Below, in pieces: positions 6,024-24,137 of a stretch of DNA of 32,280 bases. The notes under the pieces are model-generated. The model saw only the letters and a program-made list of their open reading frames with translations, was not told the DNA's origin and ran no database searches. This DNA is from Vicinamibacterales bacterium (lineage in GTDB: Bacteria; Acidobacteriota; Vicinamibacteria; Vicinamibacterales; UBA8438), in assembly GCA_029940535.1 (NCBI GenBank), contig JAPYUM010000012.1:41164-73443 (forward strand), in the 5' to 3' direction. The stretch's first letter is position 1. Each line of letters starts with the position of its first letter. The position numbers and the translations under genes are program-made.

Positions 6024-10852
<4,829 letters not shown>

Positions 10853-11126: not shown

Positions 11127-12023
11127 TCAGTTGGCCGCCTGCGAGCGTGGCTCGAAACCGAGTTGCAGAGGATTGATGGATCGGCCGTTGACCAACACTT
11201 CGTAGTGCACGTGGATGCCTGTGGCACGCCCGGTCGCACCGGCATACCCGATGACGTCGCCTCGCGCCACTGTCTCACCGACCGACGTGGCAAACTGGGC
11301 CAGGTGGCCATACCGCGTGACCAGCCCGAAACCGTGCTCGATCTCAATGAGGTTACCGAAGGCGCCACTCGCGGCCGCCGAGTTGATGGTGCCGCTGGCG
11401 GTGGCGAAGACCGGCTGTCCGGCGTCGGTGGAGATGTCGACCGCGGAATGGAACTGCCTCTCACCGGTGAGGGGGTCGGGGCGGTAGCCGTATCGGCTGG
11501 TGACCCGACCATCCGAGGGGAGGTTGATGGGTGTCGCCGCCGCGAACGCCTGCTGGTGGTCGACGCCGTCACTCGCAACGGCCAATTGCCCGTCGAGCAC
11601 GTTCAACAGGTCGTTCAACAGATTGAAGGTCTCGATGGGCGAGCTCAACGCGACTGAGCGCAAGGCCCGTGCGCCGTCGTCGCCGGCATCCTCCGGGAGA
11701 CGTCCCATGGCCCGACGGACGCGGGGATCGACAATCGAATGATCCCGCAGTTGCATCATCGCCAGCTGGAGGGCGCTGATCCCTCCTGACAGGTCATCAC
11801 TCGCGGTCCGATACCGCGCATTATCCACCTCAAGGGTGGCGTTCTGCAGTTGCAGGTGTTCGATGCGAGCCGTCGCGGCCCAGCGCGCCTGCAGGGTCCA
11901 CCCCACGGGCACGGCGAGCACGGCCATGATCAACGCGACCGTTGGCCGCACCGCCAGCGTAAAGCGGCGAACGACTCCAGACGACCGGTCGGCAACGATG
12001 AGGGAGTAGCGCTTGGGCAGCAT
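11127..12023 (-). CDS. M23 family metallopeptidase, membrane-anchored (LytM/peptidoglycan endopeptidase type)
   Basis: The protein has 298 residues. The basic N-terminus is followed by one membrane segment (about 25-44, 'VALIMAVLAVPVGW'). Then comes a short coiled-coil-like stretch (about 50-95) and a C-terminal peptidase domain (about 165-285). The zinc and catalytic residues are intact: H192 and D196 in 'FHSAVDIS', H240 in 'TRYGHLAQ', and 'HVHYE' (271-275). The likely role is periplasmic cleavage of peptidoglycan cross-links, or a cell-shape or division factor. The layout (TM, coil, M23) resembles proteins often annotated as M23 peptidases near secA in Acidobacteriota and Deltaproteobacteria; that placement is from memory. 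A candidate promoter sits at 12060-12089. It may read through into secA, since no clear terminator follows. Confidence 0.9.
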   Translation of the reverse strand: MLPKRYSLIVADRSSGVVRRFTLAVRPTVALIMAVLAVPVGWTLQARWAATARIEHLQLQNATLEVDNARYRTASDDLSGGISALQLAMMQLRDHSIVDPRVRRAMGRLPEDAGDDGARALRSVALSSPIETFNLLNDLLNVLDGQLAVASDGVDHQQAFAAATPINLPSDGRVTSRYGYRPDPLTGERQFHSAVDISTDAGQPVFATASGTINSAAASGAFGNLIEIEHGFGLVTRYGHLAQFATSVGETVARGDVIGYAGATGRATGIHVHYEVLVNGRSINPLQLGFEPRSQAAN

Positions 12024-12059
12024 CCAGTTCGCGAACGGACGACAGTGAAAAATCCCCGC

Positions 12060-12089
12060 ACTTTACCATGGAAATAGTGTAAACGCCAA
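12060..12089 (-). promoter_or_regulatory. Candidate promoter of the M23 peptidase gene
   Basis: On the minus strand there is TTGGCG (12089-12084), an 18-nt spacer and TAAAGT (12065-12060), with a TG one base before the -10 box (extended -10). Both hexamers match consensus at 4 of 6 positions. The predicted start of transcription is about 30 nt before the gene's ATG. Confidence 0.4.
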
Positions 12090-12380
12090 ACCCTGATGCC
12101 GTCGGGCTTTGCCCACGGCTGGCCCGCCCGTGTGGACGCGGACCACGACCGGACCAGGCCACGCGGCCACCGCTGCGGGTTCAACCGGCATGGGTGCGGC
12201 GAGGGTGCCGCGCTCGATCACGCGGAGCGGGCCCCGCCGCGCTTCGCTCAAGGCTGTCCACGGCACGCCTCCTTGGTGCGCGGGCTGCTAGCAGCCGTGT
12301 CCTGCCTATCCATTCCATGAGCACCGGTCGGAGACGCTGACTAGAACGCGGTAGCGAAGCGGGCCAGCCAGCCGAAACAA

Positions 12381-12409
12381 TTGACATACATATTTCTCGG
12401 AAGTAATCT
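12381..12409 (+). promoter_or_regulatory. Candidate promoter upstream of the small basic protein gene
   Basis: A perfect -35 box TTGACA (12381-12386) is followed by a 17-nt spacer and TAATCT (12404-12409), which keeps the key first, second and last -10 bases. It lies in the AT-richer island and would give a leader of about 210 nt before 12630. It is weakened by the general AT richness of the island. Confidence 0.35.
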
Positions 12410-12629
12410 TTTCTTTGCTTCGTGGGTCTTGCTCCCCGTAACCGGCATCCAACTGTAGCCCGTCGTTCGGGTATCGCAGTTGTATGGTGGAGCGCTATTG
12501 AATAAACAGCTGACCCACCAGCTTCTATTCGCTGTGATCTCGCCGTTGCTTCGTCCACTCATGGATGGGATGATGGCCACGTTCGTCCGAACACGTCGTT
12601 ACTGTCCGTGAAAGGGGCCGCACCATACG

Positions 12630-12881
12630 ATGCAGACTATTATTGACAACCTCAAAGCCGAGCGAGCCGCATTGCTCGACGGGCTCGCCAAGATTGATGC
12701 GGCGCTCGCCGCACTGACCGGCGGTGCGAACAAGGCTACCGCACGAGCGGGCGGGTCCGGCGGCGCGGCGGCGCCGAAACGTCGGCGTCGTCGAAAGATG
12801 ACCGATGAGCAAAAACGCGCCATTTCCGCTCGGATGAAGAAGTCCTGGGCCTCTCGCAAGCGAAAGGCCGCGCGTAAGTAG
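12630..12881 (+). CDS. Small highly basic protein, coiled-coil N-terminus and NUMOD3-like C-terminus
   Basis: The protein has 83 residues. Residues 1-30 ('MQTIIDNLKAERAALLDGLA' onward) form a likely amphipathic helix or coiled coil. Residues 31-50 are a Gly/Ala/Thr linker. Residues 50-83 are very basic: 'PKRRRRRKMTDEQKRAISAR' followed by 'MKKSWASRKRKAARK'. The 'T-EQKRAIS-RMKKSWA' pattern resembles the NUMOD3-type DNA-binding repeat, and small proteins of this style are common in Acidobacteriota and Planctomycetes. A nucleic-acid-binding role is inferred, not shown. A G-rich AGGGG lies 12 bases before the ATG, a rather long spacing. A strong hairpin (12903-12929) follows the stop, which supports an independent transcription unit. 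Confidence 0.7.
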   Translation: MQTIIDNLKAERAALLDGLAKIDAALAALTGGANKATARAGGSGGAAAPKRRRRRKMTDEQKRAISARMKKSWASRKRKAARK

Positions 12882-12902
12882 CGCGCGTCGCGCTCATTTC
12901 GG

Positions 12903-12929
12903 CGGACGCGGGCAGCCTGTCCGCGTCCG
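12903..12929 (+). terminator. Hairpin downstream of the small basic protein gene
   Basis: A perfect 9-bp stem, CGGACGCGG (12903-12911) and CCGCGTCCG (12921-12929), has a 9-nt loop. It is followed by a T-rich but interrupted run (TCATTCCTACCTT). It lies 22 nt after the stop of the 12630 gene, so it is likely an intrinsic terminator of imperfect type. Confidence 0.6.
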
Positions 12930-13023
12930 TCATTCCTACCTTGCTAGCGGCGCAACGTTCCTCGTTCAGCACTACACTCTTTGCGTCGAATATGGGTGGG
13001 CACAGCTTGCCCGCGGAGCGTAG

Positions 13024-16000
13024 ATGATGTCCTTTCGCCGTACATGCCTCGTGCTGTCGTGCTGTGGGCTCGTTGGTGCGTTGATGTCCTCCGATCGGGG
13101 CCGCGCCTGGGCCCAGAGCCCGCTGTCCATTGACGCCGTAGACTTCCAACGGGATGTCCGCCCGATCCTGGCCGACAACTGTTTCCAATGTCATGGTCCG
13201 GACATCGCGTCGCGCCGGGCCGATCTGCGGCTTGACACCCAAGAGGGAGCGCTGGGTGCGCGCCCACGTGGCGCGGCCGTCGTGGCAGCCGACGCGGACG
13301 CCAGTCTCCTCTATCAGCGAATCACCCACCCCGACGAGCGGCGTCGAATGCCCCCGGTCGGCGCCAACAAGACGCTGACCGACCGACAGATCGCCGTGCT
13401 TCGCCAGTGGATCGAGGCCGGGGCGTCCTGGGACCAGCATTGGTCCTTCGCATCGATCGAAGCACCGGTAGCGCCGAGGGTGGCGTCCGAGGGCTGGATT
13501 CGCCAGCCGCTTGACCGTTTCATCCTGTCGAGGCTCGAGGCGGAGGGGTTGTCGCCCGCACCAGAAGCCGATCGGCGGACGCTCGCGCGTCGTGTCGCGC
13601 TGGATCTCACTGGTCTTCCTCCAGACCCTGGAACGCTGGCGACCTTTTTGGGCGATACGTCAGACCAGGCCTATGAGACGTTGGTGGACCGTCTGCTCGC
13701 GTCCAGACACTGGGGCGAGCACCGGGCCCGGTATTGGTTGGATGCCGCGCGTTACGGTGATACCCACGGGATTCATATCGACAACTACCGCGAGATGTAT
13801 GCCTACCGGGACTGGGCGATAGCGGCCTTCAACCAGAACCAGCCGTTTGATCAATTTACCGTGGATCAGATTGCCGGCGATCTCTTGCCACAGCCCAGCC
13901 TTGATCAACTGGTGGCGACGGGGTTTCAACGTAACAACATCACGACCAACGAAGGCGGCGTCGTGCCGGAGGAATATGAGGCGATCTACGCCAAGGACCG
14001 CGCAGAAACGATTGGGAGTGTGTTTCTCGGATTGACGGTCGGATGCGCCACCTGCCACGACCATAAATTCGACCCCATCGCGCAGCGCGAGTTCTATGCC
14101 ATGACGGCGTTCTTCCGGAACACGACGCAGTACGTGATGGATGGGAACGTGTCCGATCCGCCGCCAATCCTCGTCGTCCCGGACGCCGCGGACCGCGACC
14201 TCTGGCGGCAGCTTCGACTGCGGGCGGCCGATGTCGACACGCAGCTCGCGTTCCGAGCGAAGGCGATTGAAACGACGTTCGATGAGTGGTTGACGCGGGG
14301 CGCGCATCGCGATCTGACCACTCCACTCGAGCCCACGGCCGAGATCCTGACGATGGCGCTTGACGATGCCGCTGGTCCGGCCGTCTGGTTCCACGGGGAG
14401 CGTCGTGCGATGCGGGTGCAGCCAGGCGCGCGGATCGAGGAGGGCCCCATTGGACATCCGGCCTTGATGTTCGATGACGCGTCCTGGGCCGAGTTGCCCA
14501 CGATGTCGCTTGACTCCGACACTCCGTTTTCACTGGCGATGTGGATTTATCAGCCCGAGGACGAGGGCAATTTCGTGGTCGGCGGGCAGTACGACCAGGA
14601 GGACGGAGGACGAGGCTGGGCGCTGACGATCGGGTCTCGCCAGCTGACGTTCCGAATGACCGGCGACCGCGCGGCTCCGGGCGTGGGGGCGCCGAGCGCC
14701 CGGATCGGTCCCATCAATACCAAGCGCATGCCGACGGGGGAGTGGACCCACATCGTGGTGACCCATGACGGCACCGGCGAACGCGGCGGTCTCCACATCT
14801 ACCAAGATGGCGATCTCGTGGAGGAACAGGGGAGCGAGTTCTTTGCCAAGGCCGAGGGCAGCATGTTGACCGACGGGCCGTTCTATCTGGGCCGTGGCGA
14901 TGCTGTGGCGAGGGATGGCGCATCTGAGGTACGGCACTTCGGTGGCGGCGGGATTGCGGACCTGCGGGTGTTCAATCGTGTGCTGACCGTCAACGAGGCG
15001 CGGGTCGTCTCGGAGTGGCAGATGCTGCAGGGCGCTCGGGCGAAGGCGCCTGGGTCGCTGAGTGTGGAGGAGCGGGACACGCTCCGGGTGCGCTATCTCA
15101 GTGTCGACGACGACGAGTACCGCGGGCTGGTCGCTCGGCAACAGAGGATCGCTCGCGAGTGGCGGGAGGTGCGACGGCGAGGCAGCATCACGCATGTGAT
15201 GCATGAATCGCCGGACACCGTGCCGGAGGCCCACGTCCTGAGTCGTGGCATGTATGACCAGCCGCTCGAACGTGTCCTGGCGGGCACGCCCGCGGCCCTG
15301 CCGCCGATGGCCGACTCCTTGCCACGTAATCGGCTGGGGCTGGCGCGCTGGCTCGTCGACGACGAGAACCCGCTCACGAGCCGGGTGACGGTGAACCGGT
15401 TTTGGCAGCAGGTGTTTGGCACCGGGATCGTGACCACGAGTGAGGACTTCGGCGCTCAGGGCGAGATCCCATCACACCCGAATCTGCTGGACTATCTCGC
15501 GGTTGAGTTTCTGGAGTCAGGGTGGGATGTAAAGCAGTTCTTCCGCATCCTCGTGACCTCGGCCACCTACCGCCAGGCCGCCTCCCTGACCCCAGACAAG
15601 CTAGAGATCGACCCGCAAAATCGGTTGCTCTCACGCGGGCCTCGCTTCCGGATGGACGCGGAAATGATCCGCGACTACGCGTTGGCGGCGAGCGGGTTGC
15701 TAGTTCGGACGATTGGCGGCCCGAGTGTGAAGCCATATCAGCCGGACGGTGTCTGGTCGACGGTGGCGATGCCCCAGAGCAACACACGGCTGTACGAGCA
15801 AGATTCGGGAGACAAGCTCTATCGGCGGAGCCTCTACACGTTCTGGAAACGTTCGGCCCCGCCGGCCTCGATGGACATTTTCAACGCCCCAACCCGCGAG
15901 CACTCGACGGTGCGGCGCGAGCGGACGAACACGCCGCTGCAGGCCCTGGTCACGATGAACGACACGCAGTTCGTCGAGGCGTCGCGACAACTCGCGCAGC

Positions 16001-16275
16001 GGGCGATGCGTGAAGCGGGTGACGACTTCGACCGCCGGCTCGACTTCGTCACCGCTAGACTGTTGGCGCGCAGTCTTACGGAACCCGAGCGCGCGGTCGC
16101 GAAGCGAACCTTCGACGGGTTCGTCGATCTGTATCAGGTCGATACGGACGATGCCCGCGCCCTGCTCGACGTGGGTGACTCGGCGTTCGACGCGGCCCTG
16201 CCGGTCACGGAGTCTGCGGCGTGGACGATGTTGGCCAGCCAGTTGTTCAATCTCGACGAAGTACTCAACAAGTAG
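13024..16275 (+). CDS. Exported cytochrome-c-type DUF1549/LamG/DUF1553 protein
   Basis: The 1083-residue protein starts with a signal peptide (about 1-31, ending 'RGRAWAQS'). A planctomycete-type cytochrome c motif follows in 'FQRDVRPILADNCFQCHGPD', with haem-binding C53, C56 and H57. Next come a DUF1549 (PSCyt2) domain at about 140-350 ('RDWAIAAFNQNQPFDQFTVD', 'TVGCATCHDHKFDPIAQREF', a second CxxCH) and a LamG/concanavalin-like segment at about 450-670. The C-terminal DUF1553 (PSD1) region, about 750-1040, includes 'NPLTSRVTVNRFWQQVFGTG'. GGAG lies 5 nt before the ATG; a second ATG follows directly. It forms an operon with the DUF1501 gene 42 bp downstream, the usual partnership. The substrate is unknown; the family is abundant in Planctomycetes and Acidobacteria, and roles in polymer breakdown are only suspected. 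Confidence 0.93.
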   Translation: MMSFRRTCLVLSCCGLVGALMSSDRGRAWAQSPLSIDAVDFQRDVRPILADNCFQCHGPDIASRRADLRLDTQEGALGARPRGAAVVAADADASLLYQRITHPDERRRMPPVGANKTLTDRQIAVLRQWIEAGASWDQHWSFASIEAPVAPRVASEGWIRQPLDRFILSRLEAEGLSPAPEADRRTLARRVALDLTGLPPDPGTLATFLGDTSDQAYETLVDRLLASRHWGEHRARYWLDAARYGDTHGIHIDNYREMYAYRDWAIAAFNQNQPFDQFTVDQIAGDLLPQPSLDQLVATGFQRNNITTNEGGVVPEEYEAIYAKDRAETIGSVFLGLTVGCATCHDHKFDPIAQREFYAMTAFFRNTTQYVMDGNVSDPPPILVVPDAADRDLWRQLRLRAADVDTQLAFRAKAIETTFDEWLTRGAHRDLTTPLEPTAEILTMALDDAAGPAVWFHGERRAMRVQPGARIEEGPIGHPALMFDDASWAELPTMSLDSDTPFSLAMWIYQPEDEGNFVVGGQYDQEDGGRGWALTIGSRQLTFRMTGDRAAPGVGAPSARIGPINTKRMPTGEWTHIVVTHDGTGERGGLHIYQDGDLVEEQGSEFFAKAEGSMLTDGPFYLGRGDAVARDGASEVRHFGGGGIADLRVFNRVLTVNEARVVSEWQMLQGARAKAPGSLSVEERDTLRVRYLSVDDDEYRGLVARQQRIAREWREVRRRGSITHVMHESPDTVPEAHVLSRGMYDQPLERVLAGTPAALPPMADSLPRNRLGLARWLVDDENPLTSRVTVNRFWQQVFGTGIVTTSEDFGAQGEIPSHPNLLDYLAVEFLESGWDVKQFFRILVTSATYRQAASLTPDKLEIDPQNRLLSRGPRFRMDAEMIRDYALAASGLLVRTIGGPSVKPYQPDGVWSTVAMPQSNTRLYEQDSGDKLYRRSLYTFWKRSAPPASMDIFNAPTREHSTVRRERTNTPLQALVTMNDTQFVEASRQLAQRAMREAGDDFDRRLDFVTARLLARSLTEPERAVAKRTFDGFVDLYQVDTDDARALLDVGDSAFDAALPVTESAAWTMLASQLFNLDEVLNK

Positions 16276-16317
16276 CCCCTGGACGCCTCAACGTCTGACC
16301 GTACGCGAGAGGACACG

Positions 16318-17784
16318 ATGCACCCATTCAAGGAAGCGATTCGGGCGGAGACCAGACGTCAATTCTTCGGCACCGCCGCCAAGGGCATCGGTGGGATCGC
16401 GTTGGCCAATCTGCTGTCGACCGACGCGTTCGCGTTGCCTCAGACGAATGATGTCGTCGGGGGGCTCCCATCGCTGCCGCACTTCGCGCCGAAGGCAAAG
16501 CGGTGCATCTATCTCCACATGATGGGCGCCCCGCCCCAGATGGATCTGCTCGACTACAAGCCAAAGATGAAGGACTGGTACGACAAGGACCTCCCGGAGA
16601 CGATCCGACAGGGCCAGCGGTTGACCACGATGACCTCTGGACAGTCGCGATTTCCCATCGCGCCGTCGGTCTTCAACTTTGCTCAGCACGGCCAGAGTGG
16701 CGCCTGGTTCTCCGAACTGCTCCCGCACACCGCGAGCATGGCCGACGACCTGGCCGTCATCCGGTCGATGCACACCGACGCGATCAACCACGAGCCGGGC
16801 ATTACGTTCATTCAGACCGGTCAGCAAATTCCGGGTCGGCCGTGTATCGGGTCCTGGTTCGCTTATGGGCTGGGCAGCATGAATGAAAACCTGCCGACCT
16901 TTGTCGTCATGAACGCGGAGCGAAGCCATCCGCGCGCCGGGGTGCAGGCGATCTCAGCCAAGCTCTGGAGCGCCGGGTTCCTGTCGCCGGAATACGCCGG
17001 GGTAGGGCTGCGCACAGGGTCGGATCCCGTGCTCTATCTCAAAGATCCGCACGGCGTGTCCCCGGCGGTGCGTCGTCAGATGCTGGACGGTCTCGGCGAA
17101 TTGAACCGGCTGCGCTACGAACAGGTCGGCGATCCGGAGACGCTCGCGCGTATCGAGCAGTACGAGATGGCCTTCAAGATGCAGTCGTCCGTGCCTGAGA
17201 TGGCGGATCTCTCAAGCGAGCCCGACCGCACGTTCGAACGGTGGGGTGAGGAAGCCAAGCAGGCCGGGAAGTTCCAGAACGCGGCGCTGATGGCGAGACG
17301 TCTCGTCGAGCGCGGCGTGCGATTCGTCCAGATCTACCACCGGGGCTGGGACGTGCACTCGTTCGCGCCGCAAGTGTTGCCGGCGCAGGCGGCAGACGTC
17401 GACCGTGCGGCCTGGGCGCTTATCCAGGACCTGAAAGAGCGTGGACTCTTCGATGAGACCTTGGTGATTTGGGGGGGCGAATTCGGCCGCACGATCTACT
17501 CGCAGGGTCGGCTCACCCCGACCGACTACGGTCGCGACCATCACCCTCGGTGCTTCAGCCTCTGGATGGCGGGGGGCGGAGTGAAGGGTGGCACGGTCTA
17601 CGGGGAGACCGACGATTTTTCGTACAACATCGTCAAGGACCCGGTGCATATCCGAGATTTCCAGGCGACCATTCTCCACCTGTTCGGTATCGACCACGAG
17701 CGGTTCACCCACAACCACCGCGGCCTGGATGCTCGCCTCACCGGTGTGGAACCAGCACGAGTCGTCCACGAAGTCCTCGCCTAG
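16318..17784 (+). CDS. Tat-exported DUF1501 (sulfatase-like) protein
   Basis: The 488-residue protein has a twin-arginine signal at the N-terminus ('TRRQFFGTAAKGIGGIALAN', R13-R14). This predicts folded export through Tat. The body has the DUF1501 features 'CIYLHMMGAPPQMDLLDYKP', 'VIRSMHTDAINHEPG' and 'VIWGGEFGRT', followed by 'DHHPRCFSLWMAGGGVKGGT'. DUF1501 belongs to the alkaline phosphatase/sulfatase-like superfamily, and its conserved acidic and histidine residues probably bind metal. The ribosome binding site GAGAGGA is followed by ACACG and the ATG. The gene is paired with the upstream DUF1549/DUF1553 gene. The true substrate is unknown. Confidence 0.93.
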   Translation: MHPFKEAIRAETRRQFFGTAAKGIGGIALANLLSTDAFALPQTNDVVGGLPSLPHFAPKAKRCIYLHMMGAPPQMDLLDYKPKMKDWYDKDLPETIRQGQRLTTMTSGQSRFPIAPSVFNFAQHGQSGAWFSELLPHTASMADDLAVIRSMHTDAINHEPGITFIQTGQQIPGRPCIGSWFAYGLGSMNENLPTFVVMNAERSHPRAGVQAISAKLWSAGFLSPEYAGVGLRTGSDPVLYLKDPHGVSPAVRRQMLDGLGELNRLRYEQVGDPETLARIEQYEMAFKMQSSVPEMADLSSEPDRTFERWGEEAKQAGKFQNAALMARRLVERGVRFVQIYHRGWDVHSFAPQVLPAQAADVDRAAWALIQDLKERGLFDETLVIWGGEFGRTIYSQGRLTPTDYGRDHHPRCFSLWMAGGGVKGGTVYGETDDFSYNIVKDPVHIRDFQATILHLFGIDHERFTHNHRGLDARLTGVEPARVVHEVLA

Positions 17785-19148: not shown

Positions 19149-19829
19149 CTAGTTGGTCGCGAAGCAGTAGAAGAGCCCGGCCCCGCCGGTGGCCACGAGG
19201 TCGGCTTGTCCGCACCCACGGCTCGGATGCGACGAGTTCCAGGAGCCGTTGTTGCCACCCTGCTTGTCCGAATGACCCAGTTGCGCTGAGCCAGTACCAT
19301 TGCCCGTCCAGTTGTTACACGTGTGGTCCATCCCATCCGTGTACCCGCGCCCGTTCGTGTGGGAGCCGGTCAGGATGTCGTGCTGATTCGGCGAGTCGCC
19401 GACACCGTTGACGCGGTCACCGTTCTCTGTCATCGATATCACCTTGCCCAGCGCGTTGCCCAACTGCGCCAGCTCCAGCGTGTCCCCATGGAGTGACGCG
19501 ACATCCGTGGCGACGCGTCGGCGCCCCCCGCTCGCATACCAGGGCCCGCTGCCGATCCGGTCTCGCGCGTTCACGGCGTTCGGTCCCTGCGTGCTGAGAT
19601 AGGCCTGCCACGTCGAAGCGCCGCGGCCGGCCGCGGTCGCCAGCGTTTGGCAGTGCGCGTCGGCGCCGGCCAGGCCGCCGAGATTGGCCCCGTCTCCCAG
19701 GCCGACACTAGTGACGAAGAACGACATCGGTTGTGGTGGCGCTTGCTGCGCGACCACCGCGTAGGACGTGCCCGCCACCGCGATGGCGACGGCGATGACC
19801 AACGATGCTCGGTGCTTCTTGTTCAACAT
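19149..19829 (-). CDS. Small exported protein with four cysteines (often annotated as lectin or hypothetical)
   Basis: The protein has 226 residues from the ATG at 19829, which is preceded by GGAGGT on the minus strand. A longer frame to 19973 runs into the deletion scar and is rejected. The signal peptide is 'MLNKKHRASLVIAVAIAVAG' and the following few residues, ending near 'AVVAQQ'. The mature part opens with 'SFFVTSVGLGDGANLGGLAG' and contains 'ADAHCQTLA', 'YLSTQGPNAVNARDRIGSGP', 'DILTGSHTNGR', 'HTCNNWTGNGTGSAQLGHSD' and 'SWNSSHPSRGCGQ'. It ends in 'GAGLFYCFATN'. Four cysteines could form two disulfides outside the cytoplasm. The family is widespread in environmental Proteobacteria and Acidobacteria, and its fold may resemble endostatin or C-type lectins. 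No function is established. Confidence 0.88.
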   Translation of the reverse strand: MLNKKHRASLVIAVAIAVAGTSYAVVAQQAPPQPMSFFVTSVGLGDGANLGGLAGADAHCQTLATAAGRGASTWQAYLSTQGPNAVNARDRIGSGPWYASGGRRRVATDVASLHGDTLELAQLGNALGKVISMTENGDRVNGVGDSPNQHDILTGSHTNGRGYTDGMDHTCNNWTGNGTGSAQLGHSDKQGGNNGSWNSSHPSRGCGQADLVATGGAGLFYCFATN

Positions 19830-19972
19830 GATGCTGTGACCTCCGCGTTCAGGGACTTGCCCATAGCCACACGAACACGCCATTGTCGGTGTGACCCTGC
19901 CGGTATCGAACGCTGATTCTCTCACGGGGCTGGCAAAAAGCCCCGCGGCATTCGACCGACGCCGCATCCGCA

Positions 19973-20313: not shown

Positions 20314-21840
20314 CTAGTCCTCCAACCGGAACTGCACCGCTTCGGCCAGATGCTCCACCGTGATCCGGTCCGCCCCGGCGAGGTCGGCGATCGTGCGAGC
20401 GACCTTCATCAGCCGATGACAACTTCGCGCGGACAGGTGGAACCGACGACTGGCGGCATCGAGCACGCGTAGACCGGCGGCGTCGAGGGCGCAGTGGCGG
20501 GTGAGCGCCGCGCCCGCCAGTCGCGCGTTCACGGGGACGATCCCCTCGGAATGGTTCCGCACCGACTGGCGGTCGCGGGCCGCGAAGACCCGTCGCCGGA
20601 CGAAGGCCGACGACTCTCCAGGCGCCGCCATCGCGATCGCGGTGAACGGCACCGCCGGCACCCAGACGCTCAGATCAATCCGGTCGCGCAGCGGCCCGGA
20701 GAGGCGCCCCCGATACCGATCGATCTGCTGGGGTGTGCATCGGCAGACCCGCACCGGGTCGTCGTGATAGCCGCATGGACAGGGGTTCATGGCGGCGACG
20801 AGCATGAACCGGGCGGGAAAGACGGCGGTGCGGAGAGCCCGCGCGATCCGGATCGCGCCTTCTTCGAGTGGTTGGCGGAGCGCGTCCAGCACGTGCCGGG
20901 CGAACTCGGCCGTTTCGTCGAGCAGGAGCACGCCGTTGTGCGCCAGGCTGATCTCGCCGGGCCGCGGCAGGCTGCCACCACCGACGAGTGCGACGTTGGA
21001 CGCGGTGTGATGCGGCGCTCGGAACGGGGCCGCGGTCAGGAGCCCGGCGGCGGGAGGGAGGAGGCCGGCAACCGAGTGAATCGCGGTGGTTTCCAGGGCC
21101 TCGTCGAGCGTCAACGGCGGGAGGATGCCGGGGAGTCGCCGGGCGAGCATGCTCTTGCCGGCCCCTGGGGGGCCGACGAACAGCAGATTGTGCCCGCCGG
21201 CGGCCGCGACCTCGAGCGCCCGACGAGCCAGGGCCTGACCCTTGACGTCCGCCAGGTCGGCGGAGTGGGCCGGGTTCGTGTGGTGGGGGGCGGTGATGGG
21301 CGGCGACGGTGTCGGCGGGCGAGGCTGACGACCACTCAGAATCGCGACGGTTTCCTGCAGCGAGTTGACGCCGACGACGTCGAGTCCGGAGACAAGCGCC
21401 GCTTCCGTCGCGTTGGCCGCTGGCAGCACGATGTCTCGGATACCGTCTCGGCGCGCGCGGGCCGCAATCGGCAGCGTGCCGCGAATGGATCTCACCGCAC
21501 CGTCGAGGGACAACTCGCCGAGGACGATCGCCTCGTCAAGACGCCGGTGGGGGAGCAGACCCGACGCGGCCAGGACGCCGAGGGCAATGGGCAGGTCGAA
21601 GGCGGCCCCGACCTTGCGGATGTCGGCCGGGGAGAGATTGACGGTGACGCGTCGTTGCGGGAATTCGAACCCGGAGTTGCGGACGGCGCTCTGCACGCGC
21701 TCCCGTGACTCGCGCACGCTGGCATCCGGTAGTCCCACCATGGTGATGGTCGGCAGTCCGCCATCGGAGACGTCGACCTCGACATCGACCGGGTAGGCGT
21801 CGATTCCGAAGGTCGCAGCGGTGCGCAGCGTGGCCAACAC
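20314..21840 (-). CDS. comM: ComM/YifB-family Mg-chelatase-like AAA+ ATPase
   Basis: The 508-residue protein is of normal family length. The N-terminal Lon-protease-like domain (about 1-165) opens with 'ATFGIDAYPVDVEVDVSDGG' and contains 'GLPDASVRESRERV' and 'VNLSPADIRKVGAAFDLPIA'. The AAA+ domain (about 195-400) has Walker A 'GPPGAGKS' (223-230), Walker B 'GVLLLDETAEF' and the zinc-like motif 'MNPCPCGYHDDP'. The C-terminal Mg_chelatase_C part contains 'LSARSCHRLMKVARTIADLA'. ComM is a hexameric helicase that promotes branch migration during natural transformation in Vibrio and Acinetobacter; that role here is assumed from the family. It starts with GTG at 21840. The 160-bp gap to the dehydrogenase gene upstream suggests a separate promoter. 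Confidence 0.93.
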   Translation of the reverse strand: MLATLRTAATFGIDAYPVDVEVDVSDGGLPTITMVGLPDASVRESRERVQSAVRNSGFEFPQRRVTVNLSPADIRKVGAAFDLPIALGVLAASGLLPHRRLDEAIVLGELSLDGAVRSIRGTLPIAARARRDGIRDIVLPAANATEAALVSGLDVVGVNSLQETVAILSGRQPRPPTPSPPITAPHHTNPAHSADLADVKGQALARRALEVAAAGGHNLLFVGPPGAGKSMLARRLPGILPPLTLDEALETTAIHSVAGLLPPAAGLLTAAPFRAPHHTASNVALVGGGSLPRPGEISLAHNGVLLLDETAEFARHVLDALRQPLEEGAIRIARALRTAVFPARFMLVAAMNPCPCGYHDDPVRVCRCTPQQIDRYRGRLSGPLRDRIDLSVWVPAVPFTAIAMAAPGESSAFVRRRVFAARDRQSVRNHSEGIVPVNARLAGAALTRHCALDAAGLRVLDAASRRFHLSARSCHRLMKVARTIADLAGADRITVEHLAEAVQFRLED

Positions 21841-22000: not shown

Positions 22001-23803
22001 CTAACGGGGGAGTTCGGCCTGGACGAACACGTGGTGCTGCTGACCGAGGTCCTGGGCTGACGGCGTGATGATGGTGCCTTCGCCGACGGTAATGCGCCGA
22101 TGGTCCCGTAGCGCCTGACGCACGTCGTCTTCACACACGAAATCGACCGCCACGTCCACCTCGGGGACCACGGACGTGCCAGCGGTGGTGCTCGCCACCG
22201 GTGTGACCGGGGGGGGAGCCGGGACCGGCGCCGTGGCGGAGGGGGTGATGGTCGGCGCGGCCGCAAGACTTGGTGGCGAAGCCTCCGAGGTGGCGGCGAT
22301 GCCGCGCGAGGCCAGGAACGTCTCGATTCGCCCCGAGAGCAGCGCCGGGTCGATGCCGCCGCGCTTCGGTTTGGATGGGGCCTCGGGGAGGCGAGGTCCC
22401 TCGGGAGAGTCGGCTGCGGGTGCGACGGGCGCTCGGGCCGGCCGGATCCCGTAGGCCAGTCGCTTCGTGTTCAGGAGATGTCGCGGAGTGATGTTGTCGG
22501 AGGTGATGTTACCGCCGTGTCCGCCGCAGCCGAGCGTCATTGATGGATCGAGCCCGGTGGTCATCCCGATCGAGCCGAGCGTGGTCGGGGTGTTCACCAC
22601 GATGCGGAACGCCGATTTCTTGAGGCCGAATTCGAGGATGACCTGTTCATCCTGCGAGTGGATCGACATCGTGTGTCCCATCCCGCCGTATCGAAGAATC
22701 TCCTGGCATCGGCTGCACGCCTCGTGCCAGTCCGCCACCACGTAGAACGAGAGGACGGGGCAGAGCTTCTCCATGGAGAGGGGATACTCGCGCCCAACGC
22801 CATCCAGCGGGGCAAGGAGCACCCGGGTGTCAGCCGGGACGTGGATGTCGACTCGGCCCGCAATCTCCAACGCCGTGCGACCGACCAGCTCCGGGTTCGG
22901 TAGGCGGTCCGCGGTGACCAAGGTCGCGGCCAGACGCTCGGCTTCAGCCGGGCTGAGAAAATAGCCGCCTTGTCGTTCGAATTCTCGACGCGCCTCGCCG
23001 GAAATGACCTCGTCGACGACAACGGAGTTCTCCGATGAACAGAGCACTCCGTTGTCGAACGTCTTCCCGGTGATGATGTCAGCCACGGCCTTGGCCAGAT
23101 CGGCGGTGCGCTCGACATAGGCGGGTGCGTTCCCGGGACCGACCCCGTAGGCCGGCTTGCCGGCGCTATAGGCGGCGCGGACCAGGGCCAGTCCCCCGGT
23201 CGCCAGGATGAGGGCCACCTCGCGGCGGCGCATCAGTTCCTGGGTACCTTCGAGCGTAATCGTGGTCATGCAACTGATCGACCCGTCCGGCGCACCAGCC
23301 GCCGTGGCGGCTTCGGTCATCACTTCCGCGACGCGTCGGATCGAGCGAACCGCGGACGGATGTGGGCTCAACACCACGGCACAGCGCGCCTTCAGACAGA
23401 CCAGCAGTTTGTAGATGGCGGTCGACGTGGGGTTGGTCGACGGGACGATGGCGGCGACGACGCCGAACGGTTCGGCGATATCCACCACCCGCACGTCGTC
23501 GTGCCGGGCGATGACGCCGACCGTGCGCATGGGCCTGATGAAGCGGTAAATGGTGTCGGCCGCGAACAGGTTCTTCTGGACCTTGTCCGCCTCAAGCCCG
23601 TATCCGGTTTCCTCGACCGCCATCCGGGCGAACGGCCCCGCCTGGGCGGCCGCGGCGCTGGCCATGGCGTCGACGATCCCGTCAATCTGCTCCTGGTTCA
23701 GCTCGGCCAGGCGTGTCTGCGCCGCTTTGGCACGCCGAGCCATTGTGCGGGCCTGCCGGATGGAGTCGAGGTCTCGGTCAGTCTGCGCGACAGAGTCGGC
23801 CAT
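22001..23803 (-). CDS. Microcompartment-type CoA-acylating aldehyde dehydrogenase with long C-terminal extension
   Basis: The protein has 600 residues from the ATG at 23803; a TTG at 23827 would add eight. The catalytic part (about 1-455) resembles EutE/PduP and the AdhE N-terminal domain. Visible motifs are 'IVPSTNPTSTAIYKLLVCLK', 'GVGPGNAPAYVERTAD' and the catalytic cysteine C255 in 'FDNGVLCSSENSVVVDE'. 'GKPAYGVGPGN' and 'LGCGGHGGNITSDNITPRHL' are also family-like. It should convert an aldehyde and CoA to acyl-CoA with NAD+. The last 145 residues are extra. They comprise a Pro/Ala linker, a short amphipathic helix 'DPALLSGRIETFLASRGI', a second low-complexity linker, and a folded-looking tail 'FVCEDDVRQALRD' to 'GTIITPSAQDLGQQ'. 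Helices on linkers often direct enzymes into microcompartments. It lies directly after the BMC-H gene, probably in one operon. Confidence 0.92.
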   Translation of the reverse strand: MADSVAQTDRDLDSIRQARTMARRAKAAQTRLAELNQEQIDGIVDAMASAAAAQAGPFARMAVEETGYGLEADKVQKNLFAADTIYRFIRPMRTVGVIARHDDVRVVDIAEPFGVVAAIVPSTNPTSTAIYKLLVCLKARCAVVLSPHPSAVRSIRRVAEVMTEAATAAGAPDGSISCMTTITLEGTQELMRRREVALILATGGLALVRAAYSAGKPAYGVGPGNAPAYVERTADLAKAVADIITGKTFDNGVLCSSENSVVVDEVISGEARREFERQGGYFLSPAEAERLAATLVTADRLPNPELVGRTALEIAGRVDIHVPADTRVLLAPLDGVGREYPLSMEKLCPVLSFYVVADWHEACSRCQEILRYGGMGHTMSIHSQDEQVILEFGLKKSAFRIVVNTPTTLGSIGMTTGLDPSMTLGCGGHGGNITSDNITPRHLLNTKRLAYGIRPARAPVAPAADSPEGPRLPEAPSKPKRGGIDPALLSGRIETFLASRGIAATSEASPPSLAAAPTITPSATAPVPAPPPVTPVASTTAGTSVVPEVDVAVDFVCEDDVRQALRDHRRITVGEGTIITPSAQDLGQQHHVFVQAELPR

Positions 23804-23858
23804 GGTGGCTGGTGGCCTGGATGGCAAGGAAAATCAAGAACCGCGTGTGCGGGGGGCC

Positions 23859-24137
23859 TTAGTCGCCGTTCGGCAGGATTTTCTCCACCTCGCCGTGCGG
23901 GCGCGGGATCACGTGTACCGACACCAGCTCGCCGACACGGCGGGCCGCGGCCGCCCCGGCATCGGTCGATGCTTTGACCGCGCCGACATCGCCCCGGACG
24001 AACACGGTGACGAACCCGGCTCCGATGTACTCCTTACCGACCAGCACGACGTTGGCCGCTTTGACCATGGCGTCGGCGGCCTCAATGGAACCAACCAGAC
24101 CCTTCGTTTCCACCATGCCGAGCGCTTCGAGGGACAT
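23859..24137 (-). CDS. BMC-H hexameric microcompartment shell protein
   Basis: The 92-residue protein is a single-domain shell protein of the PduA/EutM/CcmK type. The start '[20 protein letters not shown]' is diagnostic, as are '[20 protein letters not shown]' and '[20 protein letters not shown]'. Six copies would form a hexagonal tile; the loop '[10 protein letters not shown]' lines the central pore. GGAG lies 7 nt before the ATG. The acylating aldehyde dehydrogenase follows at 23803 with a 55-nt gap. No pentamer (EutN/CcmL), BMC-T or signature lyase gene is in the window, so other parts of the shell would have to be encoded elsewhere. Confidence 0.96.

Follow-up and report, generated by a model that had tools for sequence, protein, structure and literature searches.

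How the chromosome is organised and how foreign genes are silenced in the little-studied phylum Acidobacteriota is, to our knowledge, an open question. A short gene in the genome of a Vicinamibacterales bacterium raises this question at a single locus, namely what a very basic protein of 83 residues might do there. The gene was analysed within a stretch of 32,280 nucleotides, hereafter the window. An earlier note, made from the letters of this DNA, had described a coiled-coil head, a NUMOD3-like tail rich in Arg and Lys, and a terminator-like hairpin, and had suggested a nucleoid-associated or RNA-binding protein not yet described. A small basic coiled-coil protein with a recurring tail would be a concrete and easily expressed candidate for a role in Acidobacteriota chromosome organisation or silencing, and the tail motif would offer annotators a new module.

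The gene, its conservation and its hairpin

The small open reading frame reported in the earlier note proved exact. It opens with ATG, closes with TAG, encodes 83 residues and lies among the following features.

7964 to 10852: secA, on the left side of the 83-residue gene, beyond the M23 peptidase gene.
11127 to 12023, opposite in direction to the 83-residue gene: M23 peptidase gene (Pfam), the left neighbour.
12630 to 12881, plus strand: gene of the 83-residue basic protein, stop codon included, recognised by its reading frame, orthologues and dN/dS.
12901 to 12931, plus strand: GC-rich hairpin of 14 pairs with a 3-nt loop, 31 nt in all, starting 20 nt past the last base of the stop codon.
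From 13024: PSD1/PSCyt-domain gene, the next gene on the right.

The earlier note had made its proposal depend on homologues in related genomes, and orthologues were found there. Three of the four congeners searched carry one, at 84, 80 and 76% identity, and G012, a genome from another genus, carries one at 61%. The fourth congener, G022 (83% complete, in 1,240 contigs), matches best with a more distant paralogue, at 52%. Within the bacterial family, 17 of 28 genomes, the window's own included, match the protein at E ≤ 0.001; the search was run at E ≤ 1, where all 28 match, many of them by chance. DNA alignments place the orthologues beside the M23 peptidase/secA region in three congeners, with only the start of secA present on the orthologue contig of G020. 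The gene is present once at the window locus, with its neighbours kept in three congeners and in G012. Across six pairs from four orthologues, dN/dS on the codons of the N- and C-terminal parts (linker excluded) was 0.046–0.142; these ratios are rough because several dS values exceed 1, and they point to purifying selection on the gene. Judged from these comparisons of sequence, the reading frame represents a real, conserved gene.

Across the phylum, 85 of 396 genomes match a full-length profile at E ≤ 0.01, a count that may be low because the scan scored 14 candidates per genome, and that may include a few chance matches close to the limit; among the better genomes, 79 of 338 match. By this count the protein family is patchy, and therefore does not look like a core nucleoid protein. 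A genome scan yielded 152 pattern stretches, of which 27 loci were confirmed and 125 were not. All but one of the confirmed loci (26) are assigned to Acidobacteria or to groups within them, and the remaining locus, L079, is labelled Acidimicrobiia and encodes the same protein as G202, a genome of the window's order. For the confirmed loci, an occurrence outside Acidobacteriota was therefore rejected.

At -27.7 kcal/mol, the hairpin downstream of the gene exceeds in stability every other 34-nt stretch of the window on both strands, the next being one of -26.5 at 8118 on the minus strand. None of 200 shuffles of the surrounding 85 nt folds as well as the native sequence (z -3.26). Counterpart hairpins lie directly after the orthologues in G021 and G020 (-27.8 and -23.8), and by eye the stem changes in these two genomes keep the pairing; the strongest hairpins downstream of the more distant relatives, in G012, G001 and G002, lie between -7.3 and -12.4. 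A pattern built from the three known copies was searched in five genomes of the genus. It occurs once each in G000, G020 and G021, at the 83-residue gene, and was absent from G022 and from G019, where the contig ends before the site. With one copy per genome, a dispersed repeat was rejected for that pattern. Consensus scans of the plus strand from 12000 to 13100 found neither a sigma-70 promoter nor a T-rich terminator, and Rfam had no match over the same interval at its gathering threshold. The terminator-like hairpin of the earlier note is thus confirmed as a stable structure conserved after the gene within the genus, but not as a canonical terminator, as it lacks a T-run and the terminator scan reported none. 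It probably marks the transcription end of the gene or stabilises its 3' end within the genus.

A helical head, a linker and a basic tail

The very basic character of the protein and its cluster of Arg and Lys were borne out. Its pI is 11.9 and its net charge about +16.5 at pH 7, and 18 of its 23 Lys/Arg residues fall within the last 34 (residues 50–83), which hold two Asp/Glu. Such charge is not unusual in this GC-rich window, where 13 of 193 ORFs of at least 60 aa, the 83-residue one included, are at least equally basic (only one of the 13 with at least 10 Lys), and the case therefore rests on conservation. An AlphaFold2 model built with 27 sequences (mean pLDDT 80.9) predicts helices at residues 2–29 and 59–82, joined by a low-confidence linker; at a pTM of 0.32, the model does not fix how the two helices lie relative to each other. 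Three parts can be laid out along the gene.

12633 to 12716, plus strand: N-terminal helix, residues 2–29, predicted by AlphaFold2 (pLDDT about 92 over residues 1–20) and supported by a heptad test.
12717 to 12776, plus strand: linker, residues 30–49, variable and Gly/Ala-rich, with pLDDT below 50 at residues 37–45.
12777 to 12878, plus strand: basic C-terminal module (KRRRRRKMTDEQKRAISARMKKSWASRKRKAARK), residues 50–83, drawn from an alignment of 31 tails, the predicted helix 59–82 and recurrence in its own genome and in relatives.

The heptad residues of the N-terminal helix are I5, L8, R12, L15, L19, I22, L26 and L29. Large hydrophobics make up 89% of the best register of the first 30 residues, compared with a mean of 54% in shuffles, and none of 500 shuffles reached the observed value. 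The 27 sequences together score a mean of 0.80 against 0.52 when shuffled, and for one of them 17% of shuffles equal its score. The predicted helix and a heptad pattern beyond that of shuffles agree with the coiled-coil-type head proposed earlier, and the helix is probably a coiled-coil dimerisation segment. The linker that follows differs among homologues in both length and sequence.

A profile search, which the earlier note had put forward as a check, gave the window protein no significant match in Pfam, NCBIfam or PHROGs. When 16 members were compared with Pfam, scattered weak matches were obtained, the best being to Snf7 (E 0.0027, two members) and DUF7260 (0.0062). Among solved structures, the whole-protein profile had 12 matches at E < 0.06, all to designed coiled-coil proteins and an alphabody; the tail profile reached E 1.3 at best. 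Half of the 16 members match phrog_1709, a phage family of 96 positions whose function is unknown, at E ≤ 1 (best 0.00099). These scores are weak, and in the window protein the tail alone is involved, its residues 52–72 matching positions 73–93. A search of the open-licence literature found no description of the protein family. As far as these libraries and this literature go, the protein is best read as a member of an undescribed family, in keeping with what the earlier note had supposed.

The tail as a recurring module

The tail motif covers about 31 residues and can be written (R/K)xMSxxxRKAVSxRMKKxWAxRRK. In the alignment of 31 tails (A3), Met and Trp are invariant, and an Ala, an Arg, an Ala and an Arg are nearly so. 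The tail profile found matches at E ≤ 0.001 in 37 of the 60 genomes searched, the window's own included. In its own genome, the copy count that the earlier note had envisaged came to five copies at three loci, namely the 83-residue gene, a 155-residue frame on contig C6 and a further 83-residue frame on contig C177. The C6 frame holds two copies, and a third overlaps its end in another frame.

Several observations concern the paralogues themselves. All three tail copies of the C6 paralogue (L115:3227-3759) have counterparts within one 188-residue frame in G022 (L163), so that a frameshift in the C6 paralogue, natural or due to assembly error, is likely. A second paralogue is present in G021, G020 and G022 (L038:11128-11361, L053:3995-4231 and L052:2281-2514), where it sits between genes matching window positions 19150–19927 and a Mg-chelatase/ComM-type gene (20314–21840). 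The gap in the window that corresponds to this site holds no tail match.

The arrangement of the motif was followed in 87 distinct ORFs, which came from family-based searches and so describe the family rather than sample genomes. One copy is present in 81 of them, two in 5 and three in 1, so that up to three copies stand in tandem, and the motif is nearly always C-terminal, with a median of one residue after it. By eye, the tail also ends proteins with a different and probably helical head (L072, L077, L089, L104 and others). Seven larger proteins that contain a SWIM-like CxC...CxH stretch also finish with the tail (L083, L159, L160, L161, L162, L167 and L169); the SWIM zinc finger model PF04434 matches six of these at E ≤ 0.0074, of which one passes the curated cut-off and five fall below it, and the seventh has no match. 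An AT-hook-type GRP motif precedes the tail in 15 of the 87 ORFs, against 2.3 expected from shuffles, and 13 of these 15, with a GRPKGS-type stretch ahead of the tail, come from genus g71 alone, in family f19. The tail is a portable module that caps proteins with differing N-termini, and its SWIM-like and AT-hook-like companions suggest DNA as the ligand.

A possible nucleoid role and its alternatives

An undescribed nucleoid-associated or nucleic-acid-binding protein is still the best reading, and the earlier note pointed in the right direction. We put at about even the chances that the window protein is a small chromosomal DNA-binding dimer with a nucleoid-type role, and it probably helps to package or silence DNA. 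In the mechanism that we propose, two chains would pair through the N-terminal helix (residues 2–29) as a coiled coil, and each chain would extend, over a flexible linker, a basic C-terminal helix (about residues 50–83) to grip DNA, which we infer to be the ligand rather than RNA. This grip would probably have little sequence specificity and may use the minor groove. A dimer that carries two such tails, each gripping DNA independently, could coat the DNA or bridge it, and would thereby act as a nucleoid-associated or silencing protein.

According to PMC6936261, H-NS-like proteins have an N-terminal self-association part, a linker and a C-terminal DNA-binding part; a coiled coil occupies site 1 in MvaT and is predicted in Rok, and H-NS and MvaT have two dimerisation sites. 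The domain plan of H-NS, MvaT and Rok, as given there, resembles the predicted layout of the window protein. However, the window protein shows one obvious self-association site, unlike H-NS and MvaT (PMC6936261), and its tail looks like a single basic helix and not a folded domain. The window protein may join an unrelated DNA-binding tail to a layout of the H-NS, MvaT and Rok kind, and a regulatory effect could follow. Membership of the H-NS and Lsr2 families was rejected. The window protein has no such Pfam match, and neither the H-NS domain (PF00816) nor the Lsr2 domain (PF11774) was found in any of 40 genomes, the window's own being included in the H-NS search, while the E. coli and C. glutamicum controls, respectively, were matched. 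This negative result speaks for the proposed nucleoid-type role, as do the purifying selection, the kept position beside the M23 peptidase and secA genes, the two predicted helices with their heptad pattern, the layout of charge, and the portable tail with its SWIM-like and AT-hook-type companions.

AT-hook proteins, which are HMGA-like, provide a further comparison. Members of the family in one genus of f19 have GRPKGSKN-type stretches immediately ahead of the tail, whereas the window protein has no GRP or hook and the conserved tail is not itself such a hook. The absence of an AT-hook from the linker of the window protein and the concentration of the GRP cases in one genus count against the DNA-binding reading, as does the finding that no solved structure or Pfam domain convincingly matches the tail. 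A wider proposal can be made tentatively, with a rather small chance of being right: the tail would be a new DNA-binding module, and the family an independently arisen Acidobacteriota counterpart of H-NS, Lsr2, MvaT and Rok, consisting of DNA-bridging silencers that serve on the chromosome, travel with mobile elements and occur in fusion with SWIM-type proteins.

A basic tail of this kind could bind RNA or ribosomes just as well, and a fairly unlikely alternative is an RNA-binding or ribosome-associated protein, whose basic helix would bind rRNA, mRNA or structured RNA while its coiled coil would dimerise the protein or dock it on a partner. A Lys/Arg-rich tail suits RNA as well as DNA, and the stable, genus-conserved hairpin after the gene could be a self-regulatory RNA target. 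However, a tail that caps SWIM-finger-like proteins and accompanies AT-hook-type motifs in one lineage points to DNA, and the patchy presence of the family in the phylum is unlike that of a ribosomal component.

It is unlikely, more so than RNA binding, that the protein was spread by mobile elements, as an accessory or silencer of integrative elements or phages, and is now resident at its site. Other members of the family do suggest such movement. G027 holds 13 tail copies, and five of the six loci examined there lie in long repeats (pairwise 3.2–12.5 kb at 98.2–99.95% identity), the sixth, L041, being about 85% identical over only 0.8 kb around the gene. In G012, two identical copies lie in a 3-kb duplicated stretch, to which assembly may contribute because the copies sit at contig ends. 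Two IMG/VR contigs also carry distant relatives, one of them with a phage-type replication initiation gene about 3 kb away. In contrast, the window gene is single copy among conserved neighbours, and at E ≤ 1, tblastn of its protein against 50,697 phage records and 72,556 plasmid records gave no match. The repeats in G027 and G012 thus suggest that some members travel, and the window gene seems to have kept its place. As a separate observation, the near-identical G027 repeats of up to 12.5 kb (L042, L043, L044, L056 and L057) possibly represent an undescribed integrative element, and the longest contains AlpA-type excisionase-like, topoisomerase-like and Lon-C-domain genes.

An adaptor, whose N-terminal helix would bind a specific partner such as a SWIM-type complex and whose tail would merely add charge, is very improbable. 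The sharing of the tail with SWIM-type proteins and the variation of N-termini between subfamilies would fit this explanation, but the tail is a specific motif with invariant Met and Trp and not a generic charged stretch, and no SWIM match was obtained in the window's own genome at E ≤ 0.001, although divergent fingers may escape this threshold.

NUMOD3 is found attached to a GIY-YIG or HNH nuclease or in a similar modular array. Pfam finds no nuclease domain in the window protein, which has 83 residues and two predicted helices. The likeness seen earlier can be traced to the tail segment AISARMK, which resembles KISEKMK of the phage T4 enzyme I-TevI (residues 189–195, within its NUMOD3 segment, 178–200 by Pfam) in the run around I-S-x-x-M-K; the Trp that is invariant among the tails is absent from the I-TevI segment. 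KISEKMK is the better of two tiny resemblances that the tail profile found in I-TevI, at 1.5 bits and without significance. The NUMOD3 model (PF07460) recognised I-TevI as a positive control (E 0.0011; 19.3 bits, the cut-off being 20.4) and matched none of 16 full-length members and none of 31 tails (the two sets overlap), and therefore the earlier note had seen a pattern likeness and not membership, which was rejected. A NUMOD3 repeat protein or homing endonuclease remnant, for which a match to PHROG 314 (homing endonuclease) at E = 0.06 could also be cited, is thus extremely improbable.

Finally, we note some gene content farther along the window. The plus strand from 13024 to 17784 carries a PSCyt1/PSCyt2/PSD1 gene followed by a DUF1501 gene, and in G021, DNA matching 13024–16275 was not found between the 83-residue gene and the DUF1501 gene. 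On the minus strand, at 22001–24137, an aldehyde-dehydrogenase-family gene adjoins a bacterial microcompartment (BMC-domain) shell gene.
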